From: Clostridia bacterium
Lineage (GTDB): Bacteria; Bacillota; Clostridia; Oscillospirales; CAG-272
Assembly: GCA_017621415.1 (NCBI GenBank)
Contig: JAGATD010000049.1
Span: 1 to 64,000, forward strand
Direction of reading: 5' to 3'
DNA: 64,000 nucleotides
Shown: positions 13,717 to 57,625 of the stretch, piece by piece
Layout: each line of letters starts with the position of its first letter
Numbering within the stretch: position 1 is the stretch's first letter
Notes under the pieces: generated by a model
Database searches by the model: none
Told to the model about the DNA's origin: nothing
The model's input: the letters and a program-made list of their open reading frames with translations, nothing else
Made by a program: the position numbers and the translations under genes

Positions 13717-13766
13717 GTTTACATAGTTTCCGGTGAGGCGTGCGGAATTGTAAGAAACCGTTCGCT

Positions 13767-13856
13767 GAGGAGCTCTGGAGAATCCCTTAAGTGGGTGCCG
13801 AAGGTGCAAGGCAGAAACACATCTGCCGAATCTCTCAGGCAAAAGGACAGAGGCGC
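13767..13856 (+). ncRNA. Glycine riboswitch aptamer (single)
   Basis: The conserved glycine-aptamer blocks are all present in order: GCTCTGGAGA (from 13772), GGGTGCCGAAGGTGCAAG (13793-13810), then ATCTCTCAGGCAAAAGGAC followed by AGAGG (13830-13854). The closing P1 stem pairs CTCTG with CAGAG. Only one full aptamer is seen, where many glycine riboswitches have two in tandem. A terminator hairpin lies 47 bases downstream and the gene after it is an alanine/glycine symporter, so the switch probably tunes amino-acid export or uptake to glycine level. Confidence 0.92.
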
Positions 13857-13902
13857 AGATATCCATTTTGTTTTTTCTGTGCGTCATACTTTTTCACAGG
13901 GC

Positions 13903-50363: not shown

Positions 50364-51635
50364 TTAGTTTTCCTCCAATGCCTTCATAGCTTTAGCTCCG
50401 ATGTCAGAGCGATAATATGCGTTTTCAAACTTTACCTTTTCGCATTTTTTATAAGCCGCCTTGATTGCAGAACCTAAGTCAGACGCAACAGCGGTAACTC
50501 CAAGTACACGTCCGCCTGCGTTAACAAGCTTTCCGTCAGAGAGCTTCGCACCGGCAACATACACAGAGTCAAACACCTCATCATCAATGGTGATTTCGTA
50601 TCCGCTCTCATACTTTTCGGGATAGCCGCGAGAAGCCATTACAACGCAGCAGGCAGCACCGTTTGCAAACCTTACTTCACATTTATCAAGAGTTTCGTTG
50701 GTTGTTGCCATCATTACATCAAGCAGGTCTGACTCAAGAAGAGGAAGAACAACCTGTGTCTCGGGGTCGCCGAAGCGGCAGTTATATTCAATAACCTTAG
50801 GTCCGTCGGGGGTAAGCATAAGTCCGAAGTAAAGGCATCCCTTAAAGGTTCTGCCCTCCTTGTTCATAGCCTCTATTGTGGGGAGGAATATTTTTTCCAT
50901 ACACTCTTTGGCTACAGCCTCGGTGTAATAGGGGTTGGGAGCTATTGTACCCATACCGCCTGTGTTAAGTCCCTCATCTCCGTCAAGAGCACGCTTATGG
51001 TCCATTGATGAAACCATAGGAATAACAACCTTTCCGTCAGTAAAGGAAAGCACCGAAACCTCGGGTCCTGTAAGGAACTCCTCGACAACAATGCGAGAGC
51101 CGCTTTCACCGAATTTTTTGTCCTCCATTATGGACTTAACGGCATCAACAGCCATTTCCCTCTCTGTTGCTATAATAACACCCTTACCGAGCGCCAAGCC
51201 GTCTGCCTTAACTACCGTGGGGATAGGACAGGTCTTAACATACTCAAGAGCCGCCTCGGCATTATCAAAAACCTCGTATCCCGCAGTGGGAATACCGTAC
51301 TTTTTCATCAGGTTCTTTGAAAACACCTTACTGCCCTCTATTATTGCCGCGTTTGCTCTTGGTCCAAAGCAAGGAACACCGATTGCCTCAAGGGCATCAA
51401 CACAACCAAGAACAAGAGGGTCATCGGGAGCAACGACCGCATAATCTATTTTCTCGTTTTTAGCAAACTCTACAATTGCGGGAATATCCTTAGCTCCGAT
51501 GGGCACAAGCGTTGCGTCTTTTGCCATACCGCCGTTACCGGGAACCGCAAAAATCTCGGTTACATTTTTATTTTCTTTTATTTTCTTGATGATGGCATGC
51601 TCTCTGCCGCCACCGCCTACTACCATTATTTTCAT
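50364..51635 (-). CDS. purD: Phosphoribosylamine--glycine ligase
   Basis: This 423-residue ATP-grasp enzyme joins phosphoribosylamine and glycine to GAR. The N-terminal MKIMVVGGGGREHAII and PDDPLVLGCVDALE are family hallmarks, and VKADGLALGKGVIIA with RIVVEEFLTGPEVSVLSF forms the ATP-grasp core; EYNCRFGDPETQVVLP holds metal ligands. GAGG lies about 9 bases before the ATG. The 277-base leader before it holds the hairpin array, while most other gaps in this operon are under 60 bases. Confidence 0.96.
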   Translation of the reverse strand: MKIMVVGGGGREHAIIKKIKENKNVTEIFAVPGNGGMAKDATLVPIGAKDIPAIVEFAKNEKIDYAVVAPDDPLVLGCVDALEAIGVPCFGPRANAAIIEGSKVFSKNLMKKYGIPTAGYEVFDNAEAALEYVKTCPIPTVVKADGLALGKGVIIATEREMAVDAVKSIMEDKKFGESGSRIVVEEFLTGPEVSVLSFTDGKVVIPMVSSMDHKRALDGDEGLNTGGMGTIAPNPYYTEAVAKECMEKIFLPTIEAMNKEGRTFKGCLYFGLMLTPDGPKVIEYNCRFGDPETQVVLPLLESDLLDVMMATTNETLDKCEVRFANGAACCVVMASRGYPEKYESGYEITIDDEVFDSVYVAGAKLSDGKLVNAGGRVLGVTAVASDLGSAIKAAYKKCEKVKFENAYYRSDIGAKAMKALEEN

Positions 51636-51660
51636 TCAGTTATACCTCATAAAATAATCT

Positions 51661-51912
51661 TGTCGCAAAGCGACATATCGAATCCGCATTACTAATGCGG
51701 ATATATCGAAATTACTAAAAGTAATTATATCGAGTGCCTCAAGGCACATATCGACAAAAAACGAACATCAATCACGAACAAAGCCTCGTCGATATACTCG
51801 GATTTGCCTCGTTAGATATGCCTCGCAAAGCTCGGCTCGATATATTCGCTCCCGCGAATTCGATATGTTTTCCGAGCCTCTCGGAAAACGTTCATTGATT
51901 GCCTGTCGGCAA
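51661..51912. repeat. Symmetric heptamer-hairpin array inside the pur operon
   Basis: ATATCGA occurs at 51675-51681, 51703-51709, 51727-51733 and 51748-51754. Its reverse complement TCGATAT occurs at 51789-51795, 51837-51843 and 51860-51866, with a one-base variant at 51813-51819. Between heptamers lie short hairpins of unrelated sequence that touch the heptamers exactly: GTCGC/GCGAC, ATCCGCATT/AATGCGGAT (loop ACT), AATTACT/AGTAATT (loop AAA), GTGCCT/AGGCAC, ATTCGC/GCGAAT, GTTTTCCGAG/CTCGGAAAAC (loop CCT), and two imperfect ones at 51796-51812 and 51820-51836. A final hairpin ATTGCC/GGCAAT (51898-51913) reaches the AICARFT stop codon. A 34-base centre (51755-51788) is unpaired apart from possible tertiary contacts. 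No ORF is apparent. Confidence 0.9.
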
Positions 51913-53097
51913 TTAATGGTGGAACAGGCGCATGCCCGTAAATGCCATAACCATGCCGTACTTATCGCAGCACTCAATAACCGCATCGTCACGGATAGAG
52001 CCGCCGGGCTCTGCTATATACTTAACGCCCGATTTCTTTGCTCTCTCGATATTATCAGAGAATGGGAAGAATGCATCCGATCCCAGGGCTACGCCGTCAA
52101 TTGTATCAAGGTATGCTCTCTGCTCTTCCTTAGTGAAGGGGGCGGGCTGCTCGGTGAAGTACTTCTGCCAATTACCGTCTGCGCAAACATCCTCTTCGTT
52201 CTGGTTTATGTAACCGTCTATAACATTGTCTCTGTCAGGGCGCTTGATATCCGCCTTGAAGGGAAGAGAGAGCACCTTGTCGGACTGACGGAGGAACCAG
52301 GTATCAGCCTTACCGCCTGCGAGTCTTGTACAGTGAACTCTCGACTGCTGACCTGCTCCAACACCTATAGCCTGTCCGTCTATTGCGAAGCAAACAGAGT
52401 TGGACTGTGTATACTTAAGAGTAATAAGAGCTACCACAAGATCGCGAACCGCACTCTCGGGCATATCCTTATTCTCTGTAACAATCTCCTTAAGAAGAGC
52501 GGGATTTATTTCAAAATTATTTCTTCCCTGCTCAAATGTAATACCGTACACCTGCTTTCTTTCAACCTCAGCGGGAACAAAGTCAGGATCTATCTTTACG
52601 ATATTGTAGCCGCCCTTTCTCTTTCCCTTAAGGATTTCAAGAGCCTCAGGCTCGTATCCGGGAGCTATGATTCCGTCAGAGACCTCTCTTGCTATCATCT
52701 TTGCGGTAGTAACGTCACAAACGTCGCTGAGCGCTACCCAGTCACCAAAGGAGCACATTCTGTCTGTACCTCTCGCTCTTGCATAAGCGCAAGCAAGAAG
52801 AGAGCCATCAAGTCCCTCTATATCATCAACAAAGCAAGCCTTCTTTAACTTGTCGGAGAGAGGAATACCAACTGCAGCGGATGTGGGAGACACGTGCTTA
52901 AAGGAGGTAACCGCAGGAAGTCCGAGAGCCGCTTTAAGCTCCTTTACAAGCTGCCAGGAATTGAATGCGTCAAGGAAGTTAATGTAGCCGGGTCTGCCGT
53001 TAAGAATCTCAATAGGAAGCTCTGAGCCGTCGTGCATAAAGATTTTAGCAGGCTTTTGGTTAGGGTTACAGCCGTATTTAAGTTCAAATTCTTTCAT
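51913..53097 (-). CDS. Stand-alone AICAR formyltransferase
   Basis: This 394-residue enzyme transfers a formyl group from 10-formyl-THF to AICAR, making FAICAR. It matches only the transformylase half of PurH, starting ELKYGCNPNQKPAKIF; the N-terminal IMP cyclohydrolase half is missing. Motifs include TSFKHVSPTSAAVG (substrate Lys-His), FGDWVALSDVCDVTTA and YTQSNSVCFAIDGQAIGVGAGQQSRVHCTRLA. The cyclohydrolase step is supplied by the PurO-type gene just upstream. AAGGAG lies before the ATG. Confidence 0.92.
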   Translation of the reverse strand: MKEFELKYGCNPNQKPAKIFMHDGSELPIEILNGRPGYINFLDAFNSWQLVKELKAALGLPAVTSFKHVSPTSAAVGIPLSDKLKKACFVDDIEGLDGSLLACAYARARGTDRMCSFGDWVALSDVCDVTTAKMIAREVSDGIIAPGYEPEALEILKGKRKGGYNIVKIDPDFVPAEVERKQVYGITFEQGRNNFEINPALLKEIVTENKDMPESAVRDLVVALITLKYTQSNSVCFAIDGQAIGVGAGQQSRVHCTRLAGGKADTWFLRQSDKVLSLPFKADIKRPDRDNVIDGYINQNEEDVCADGNWQKYFTEQPAPFTKEEQRAYLDTIDGVALGSDAFFPFSDNIERAKKSGVKYIAEPGGSIRDDAVIECCDKYGMVMAFTGMRLFHH

Positions 53098-53149
53098 TTT
53101 AATCTCCTTATGTTTATACTCACGGCGGGAGCAAGCCCCCGCACTACGA

Positions 53150-53866
53150 TTATACGTTTTTGTTTACTACTCTTGTATCGGTCTCGCCTGATGCGATGTT
53201 GATATATCTTACAAAGAGAGAGACCTTGTTGTCCTCGTTAAGATTTGTCCAGATAAGGTCTGTAAGAGTATCAATATCCACATCCGGAAGAATAAGAGTT
53301 TTAGGCTCGCCTTCGAATGAAGGAAGGGGATTTCCGTCACCGTTATATGTGTGGATAAACTTAGCAACACCTGCTTTGGGGTTAGAGTATGCGTATGTAA
53401 ATCTCTCACAGGAGGAATCGTCACCCTCAGCGCTCTTCAAAATAGACATAGCAAAGTTCATATCGCAGCACTCACGGCGGATAATACCCGAAATTCTGGG
53501 GGTAAAGTTAGGCTTATCGTCCTCAAACTCACGTGTTCTGAGAGCCTGCTCAAAGGTCATCTGCTTGTCCATAAGCTCATAAATCGTATCGGTCTGGTCG
53601 CCGTTTGTAACAATTGTTTTGTTGCCGAGAACTCTTACGGGATAGTAGATGATAAGGTGCGGGTCAACCATTTTTGACTCATCAAACGCCTTGGTACGCA
53701 TAGCATCACCCTCAAGAACAAAAACACGGTTACGGCTGTTCTCGCTTCTGCCCATAATAAAGTAAGCGGTAACTGCCTTTTTCCCGTCGGCAGACTTGCC
53801 TATTATAATTCCTCTGCCGTGGTAGGCAAGAGAGTTAAGCTCTTCCTTAATTGTGGATATTTTCAT
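53150..53866 (-). CDS. IMP cyclohydrolase of the archaeal PurO type
   Basis: This 238-residue enzyme closes FAICAR to IMP, the last step of the pathway. It has the PurO-type N-terminal NTN-hydrolase-like core: AYHGRGIIIGKSADGKKAVT, AYFIMGRSENSRNRVF, then HLIIYYPVRVLGN and PRISGIIRRECC. PurO is well known in archaea and occurs in some anaerobic bacteria in place of the PurH cyclohydrolase domain. It lies directly before the stand-alone AICAR transformylase gene, and the pair replaces PurH. It follows purN by 3 bases. Confidence 0.88.
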   Translation of the reverse strand: MKISTIKEELNSLAYHGRGIIIGKSADGKKAVTAYFIMGRSENSRNRVFVLEGDAMRTKAFDESKMVDPHLIIYYPVRVLGNKTIVTNGDQTDTIYELMDKQMTFEQALRTREFEDDKPNFTPRISGIIRRECCDMNFAMSILKSAEGDDSSCERFTYAYSNPKAGVAKFIHTYNGDGNPLPSFEGEPKTLILPDVDIDTLTDLIWTNLNEDNKVSLFVRYINIASGETDTRVVNKNV

Positions 53867-57510: not shown

Positions 57511-57554
57511 AAAAAATAAAAGGGCAGAACTACCCCATAAAGGTAGTGCTGCCC
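57511..57554 (-). terminator. ZTP-riboswitch expression-platform terminator
   Basis: On the minus strand GGGCAGCACTACC pairs with GGTAGTTCTGCCC (57522-57534 with 57542-57554), followed by TTTTATTTTTT. It overlaps the 3' end of the aptamer (TGGGCA), so ligand binding can prevent its formation. Confidence 0.92.
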
Positions 57555-57625
57555 AGACGGTCGACTTAATACGATTTTTGCTTCCTTGCAGTCAATTCTG
57601 CTTACCGTCGGTTACAAAAACCCTT
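57550..57625 (-). ncRNA. ZTP (pfl) riboswitch
   Basis: On the minus strand the conserved elements appear in order: a GTAACCGACGG segment near 57611-57601, the hairpin GCAG-aattga-CTGC, then AAGGAAGC, then CCGTCTGGGCA at the 3' end. The pseudoknot pairs GACGG with CCGTC. This matches the ZTP aptamer (GUGACUGGCG ... GGGAAGC ... CCGCCUGGGCA) with a few substitutions. It precedes purE and should turn the operon on when ZMP/ZTP accumulates, a sign of folate shortage at the AICARFT step encoded here. Confidence 0.85.

Follow-up and report, generated by a model that had tools for sequence, protein, structure and literature searches.

A heptamer-hairpin array between purH and purD is probably an S23/IVP-type mobile DNA element in a copy without its gene

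Within the purine operon of the Clostridia bacterium studied here, an array of repeated heptamers and hairpins separates purH from purD. The stretch that was analysed, called the window, is 64 kb long. The two neighbouring genes are given as context only and are both encoded on the minus strand: the upstream one (51913–53097) codes for an AICAR transformylase-type PurH of 394 aa (PF01808), and purD (GARS, 50364–51635) lies downstream of the insertion. The purH function is split (51913–53866, minus strand) between the 394-aa AICAR transformylase-type protein and a separate 238-aa IMP cyclohydrolase (PF07826). A ZMP/ZTP riboswitch was detected at 57544–57625 on the minus strand, ahead of purE and the other genes of the purine operon, with 54.5 bits (cut-off 39). 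The window also contains a glycine riboswitch aptamer at 13765–13860 on the plus strand (59.5 bits). The gap before purD measures 277 nt, as the first-pass annotation had stated.

The array extends from 51662 to 51889 and consists of two arms, each a series of four 7-bp rungs with variable hairpins in between. All eight heptamers were confirmed at the positions first proposed for them, and the hairpins were found to be flush with the heptamers in every gap. The first arm, on the plus strand, begins with an end hairpin (hp0, GTCGC-AAA-GCGAC, 51662–51674) of the kind with which the arms of relatives begin. It is followed by rung 1 (ATATCGA, 51675–51681), hairpin ATCCGCATTACTAATGCGGAT (51682–51702), rung 2 (ATATCGA, 51703–51709), hairpin AATTACTAAAAGTAATT (51710–51726), rung 3 (ATATCGA, 51727–51733), hairpin GTGCCTCAAGGCAC (51734–51747) and rung 4 (ATATCGA, 51748–51754), after which comes a CAAAA tail that comparison showed to be typical of arm ends. 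A spacer of 34 nt (51755–51788), the length originally given, separates the two tail-to-tail arms. The second arm lies on the minus strand and is given here in plus-strand order: rung 4 (TCGATAT on the plus strand, 51789–51795), a hairpin (51796–51812), the variant rung TAGATAT (51813–51819), a hairpin of the tandem G.A type (51820–51836), a further rung TCGATAT (51837–51843), hairpin ATTCGCTCCCGCGAAT with the minus-strand loop GGGA (51844–51859), rung 1 (TCGATAT, 51860–51866) and the end hairpin hp0, GTTTTCCGAGCCTCTCGGAAAAC (51867–51889). The two end hairpins are also part of the array pattern. The ACGAAC repeats and the ATCAAT/ATTGAT match, from which a pseudoknot had been suggested, are present in the sequence, but had no counterpart in the relatives compared. 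Folded as RNA, 51640–51915 reached -83.4 kcal/mol (z = -6.5), and none of 200 shuffled sequences was as good. ATATCGA occurs 16 times in the 64 kb, compared to 8.2 ± 2.8 expected. In a rung-blind scan, which looked for hairpins in alternation with any repeated 6-mer, the array was the sole site found in the window.

A regulatory RNA for purD had been one of the options of the first-pass annotation. This option failed: the orthologous purH-purD gap could be read in 24 other congeners, none of which had the array there, and it was 13–120 nt long in 22 of them. Given this lack of conservation at the junction, a leader or riboswitch of purD was rejected. In the nearest relatives (L339, L340, L341), the gap holds other, unrelated repeats with units like GGTAGAAATTGCGTGATGC. 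It looks as if the site were tolerant of insertions.

The search of related genomes, which had been proposed as a check, showed that the array belongs to a repeat family whose members adjoin unrelated genes and whose hairpins change in sequence and keep their shape. A mobile palindromic repeat is favoured among the options first considered. A two-rung pattern was found at four sites in the window's own genome and its reversed control at none. Across the order, 39 of 394 genomes, from many families, had the strict three-rung pattern, compared to 2 for the reversed pattern, and arrays also occurred in several genomes of other orders; the genomes surveyed are partly incomplete. The matches of the two-rung scan on wider genome contigs, and most of those of the three-rung scan on viral contigs, are chance matches. 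Elements of about 215 nt were 85–92% identical between orders, and the match stopped at the element ends, with unrelated flanks on either side, which means that the elements have spread horizontally. Copies in one genome (G017) have common ends and no duplication, the cross-order copies likewise have common ends, and an empty site with target duplication was not found, so that the insertion boundaries are putative. The neighbouring genes are mixed. In a survey of 136 neighbour proteins, which matched 158 Pfam families, a common function was not found. Single arms in tandem gene contexts ran 12:12 with and against the genes. In a cross-order subset (L217, L215, L491, L497, L205, L385, L206, L383, L485), a promoter-like TTGAAA..TATAAT lies directly before the array, and several of these members have an RBS directly after it. 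Named phages and plasmids gave no match with one element as query. Arrays are carried by three IMG/VR contigs, and phages may carry the element. In two of the viral contigs (L241, L248), ATATCGA arrays adjoin genes with near-identical N-termini (..LQLFADAG..) that appear capsid-like by eye.

The unit of the family is an arm composed of an end hairpin and then four rungs separated by three hairpins. Exactly four rungs were counted in 123 of the 158 ATATCGA arms with at least three rungs, and five in a single one. Rungs are identical within one arm and different between subfamilies, and the rung-blind scan added further ones (ATATCGC, ATATCAC, ACTTCAC and others). Two-armed elements are normally arranged head to head (left TCGATAT, right ATATCGA; 44 found), and single arms without a partner are common. 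The window copy is tail to tail; this was seen otherwise only in the IMG/VR contig L241 and, enclosing an S23/IVP gene, in L489 and L499. According to the first-pass annotation, the left and right heptamers could pair first with last. Not one of 24 variant left/right rung pairs was compensated and copies with a single arm exist, so this ladder pairing was rejected. Covariation was seen between a centre segment (GATATAAATCCC, GAGATAAATCCC, GATATTCGCC, GATATGAATTC etc.) and a stretch made up of the last rung and the 3' half of the last hairpin, the two being complementary at 11 or more of 12 positions in 27 of 33 elements. The window copy is without such a centre segment.

A second rung defines what Rfam lists as Gut-1 (RF01706). 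The Gut-1 model has three hairpins with a UGAAAU linker, while the linker in the window is ATATCGA/TCGATAT, and the window array did not match Gut-1 at the Rfam gathering cut-off. The only telling weak Rfam match was that of the nearest hybrid relative (L210) to Gut-1, with 24 bits against a cut-off of 50. Within the same genus, Gut-1 was found in 38 of 40 genomes, in 31 of them above the cut-off. The genome G017 holds a Gut-1 arm as well as ATATCGA arms, which have the end hairpin and the last hairpin in common and a similar outer hairpin; all rungs are different. As the architecture is equal and the linker differs, the Gut-1 RNA is one arm of a sister subfamily with a different rung.

Some arrays are directly followed by an open reading frame (at a distance of 10–68 nt in 8 of 9) for a 23S-rRNA-intervening-sequence (S23) four-helix-bundle protein (PF05635/TIGR02436), here called IVP. 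At the ATATCGA-type PF05635 loci, both arms lay directly upstream of the gene and in one orientation in 12 of 12 cases, and a simple motif search recovered the complete 4+4 ladder at 8 of them. These 12 loci come from 12 genomes of six families (f1, f4, f17, f43, f53, f69) and several orders. The window array, with 4 + 4 rungs of which one is mutated, has the approximately four 7-nt units of an S23/IVP heptamer element. In L489 and L499, an extra arm stands just after the IVP gene, tail to tail with the arm before it; removal of the gene would give the look of the window copy. The window's own genome contains four PF05635 genes, each with its own heptamer array (ATATCGA, ACATCAC, TTTTCAC and GGAGTTA). 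The gene with the same rung as the window copy is located beside a 4+4 ladder at G000:C27:10017-10364. No PF05635 gene was found adjoining the window copy itself, which is why it is called gene-less. In G000:C44 and in L505/L536, the IVP gene is placed between inverted tandem GGAGTTA heptads without hairpins, an arrangement that resembles the heptanucleotide repeats of cyanobacteria. A third hairpin array, with the linker CAATTCATG, adjoins an ATATCGA arm in L450 (upstream of 490); AATTCAT is also the rung of other IVP loci.

Within the genus, 37 of 40 genomes carry PF05635 genes; none of 14 controls does. Inspected by eye, 28 of 30 PF05635 loci had arrays, 20 of the hairpin-heptamer type and 8 made of hairpin-free tandem heptads, and the other two were cut by contig ends. 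Some 6-mer was repeated at least five times in the upstream 230 nt of 32 of 43 IVP loci compared to 1 of 210 random windows (p = 3e-22); the same statistic gave 1 of 53 for the upstream regions of other genes. On the IVP tree, 18 rung classes, assigned by hand from the flanking sequence, needed 20 changes, compared to 38–47 with shuffled labels. Linkage of neighbours rather than binding could be behind this co-clustering, and sequence linkage alone would be enough for some agreement between rung and protein. When further genomes of the phylum were examined, 17 of 48 IVP flanks showed a lag-7 periodicity compared to 4 of 96 (p = 2e-6), a peak that neighbouring lags did not have, and PF05635 genes were often flanked by hairpin-free 7-nt repeats. 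PF05635 genes with 7-nt repeat flanks were also observed inside 23S rRNA genes (L584, L590, L593, L600) and inside an RNase P RNA gene (L587).

Arrays with and without the gene are close to each other in sequence. L497 (with IVP) and L205 (without) were 92.1% identical over 191 nt, and L496 (with) and L216 (without) 86.6% over 201 nt; the gene is thus often lost or left behind. It is not needed for persistence, since ATATCGA-type IVP is absent from some array-rich genomes (e.g. G025 and G007). The relatives of IVP in the PDB are the five-chain entries 2RLD (E = 3e-24) and 2GSC (weak), and S23p has been described as a homopentamer with no known function for proteins of this family (PMC4990558).

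Taken together, we consider the window array, with a probability of roughly 0.7, to be an S23/IVP-type mobile DNA element in a non-autonomous copy that lacks the gene; IVP most likely binds the rungs belonging to its subfamily, with the geometry set by the hairpins. A complete element would consist of a two-armed heptamer-hairpin array with four rungs per arm, directly followed by the gene for the PF05635 four-helix bundle. Genomes also contain dispersed copies with just the array or a single arm, and the one in the window consists of two tail-to-tail arms between purH and purD. Binding of the protein to the rung heptamers of its own subfamily is suggested by linkage and co-variation. The hairpins would fold out where the DNA is single-stranded, on the strand with the ATATCGA reading, and in this way determine spacing and geometry. 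IVP would presumably aid the movement of the array, and an effect on purD, if any, would be incidental. Among the points that count against this explanation, IVP proteins do not, to our knowledge, belong to any known type of transposase, and in the window copy itself GNA-type loops are few and one rung is mutated.

The loops bear on the question of DNA or RNA. On the strand reading ATATCGA, which for the two arms means opposite strands of the element, GNA and GNNA loops were counted 218 times and TNC and TNNC loops 4 times, and the closing pair of the former was C-G in 202 of 218. Loops of the type cGNAg and cGNNAg form very stable DNA hairpins. The third base of GNNA was a purine in 51 and a pyrimidine in 54 cases and thus does not follow the GNRA rule of RNA. 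One transcript cannot have the favourable loop in both arms; recognition of the array as DNA single strands rather than RNA is therefore the more likely reading of the loop pattern. Among the other explanations, the one that keeps most weight is that of a structured leader or small RNA, as which Rfam files Gut-1. IVP would then bind its own leader RNA, and solo arrays would lead other genes, possibly a trans-regulated set including purD. As an RNA family, Gut-1 is curated and shows covariation (PMC2864571), and the relatives of IVP that lie within genes for 23S rRNA or RNase P RNA would fit as well. The promoter before the array in the cross-order subset, with the RBS after it, means that the array is transcribed there, which counts against a reading as DNA only, and G.T exceeded A.C on the arm strand by 35:14. 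Against RNA stand the loop rule in both arms and its departure from GNRA, the even orientation of single arms relative to tandem genes, a promoter-like sequence between array and IVP in L506 and the missing conservation at purH-purD. We regard the RNA explanation as unlikely.

The S23/IVP explanation has also to be set against an ordinary repeat of the REP/BIME or MITE type, moved by a known transposase such as Y1 (RAYT) with the IVP gene as a passenger. Intergenic palindromes dispersed beside unrelated genes are what such repeats look like. Y1_Tnp was found in only 11 of 40 genomes of the genus, is absent from the array-rich genomes G014, G021, G024 and G029, and had arrays at 0 of 13 Y1 loci, so the Y1/RAYT transposase was rejected as the mover. 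A REP consists of one short motif and one hairpin as opposed to four rungs per arm, and a passenger gene would leave the match between rung and IVP unexplained, which makes this origin very improbable. Similarly improbable is a neutral replication product, made and kept as perfect hairpins by template switching (quasipalindrome correction), with rungs as inert spacers and no trans-acting protein: stems within one genome often differ by compensatory changes, which is what template switching would produce (e.g. AAATCCC/GGGATTT to AAACCCC/GGGGTTT in G017), but the fixed number of four rungs, their identity within arms and difference between subfamilies, the loop rule and the linkage to IVP all oppose it. 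Part of the hairpin drift may still be mutational, by template switching, rather than selected.

If the S23/IVP explanation holds, the arrays suggest a directly testable function for these proteins, with the heptamer beside the gene as candidate binding target. The Rfam RNA family Gut-1 would be reinterpreted as part of a DNA repeat, and IVP would become a candidate partner protein for heptamer repeats in other bacteria. A wider proposal, to which we give even chances, is that S23/IVP four-helix-bundle proteins are sequence-specific binders of 7 nt with an own heptamer in each lineage. Together with their arrays, they would form a widespread, unrecognised class of small mobile DNA elements, whose cis parts would include the Gut-1 "RNA" and, probably, numerous heptanucleotide repeats of bacteria.

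Among known systems, REP/BIME repeats with RAYT resemble the window family in being dispersed and intergenic and in having hairpins in inverted pairs. They differ in that the Y1 gene is absent from most host genomes of the family, which has heptamer arrays of fixed number and an IVP gene instead. The heptanucleotide tandem repeats of Beggiatoaceae and cyanobacteria (TAACTGA) have the same 7-nt period and are intergenic and often located just upstream of start codons (PMC4679880), but there are no hairpins between their units. Mention of S23/IVP was not found in that paper; a possible connection of TAACTGA-type repeats with S23/IVP arrays is offered as a lead. Gut-1 was originally described from human gut metagenomes only, as a non-coding RNA candidate (PMC2864571). 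Like the window family, it has variable hairpins separated by one conserved linker, and its copies in the genus have the two-armed architecture and the centre rule of the ATATCGA family, some of them also the outer hairpin. It is distinguished by its rung, ATTTCA(C/T) instead of ATATCGA, and in Rfam a single arm is modelled, as RNA. The S23/IVP intervening sequences of rRNA (PF05635; Coxiella, Leptospira) encode the same protein family. Immediately ahead of the S23p start codon, the IVS of Coxiella, which has been called a selfish genetic element, carries three heptamers in tandem and a fourth, degenerate one (PMC4990558), and in this respect it is like the window family. These intervening sequences sit inside 23S rRNA genes, whereas the element of the window family lies in intergenic DNA, has hairpins between its heptamers and occurs in gene-less copies.
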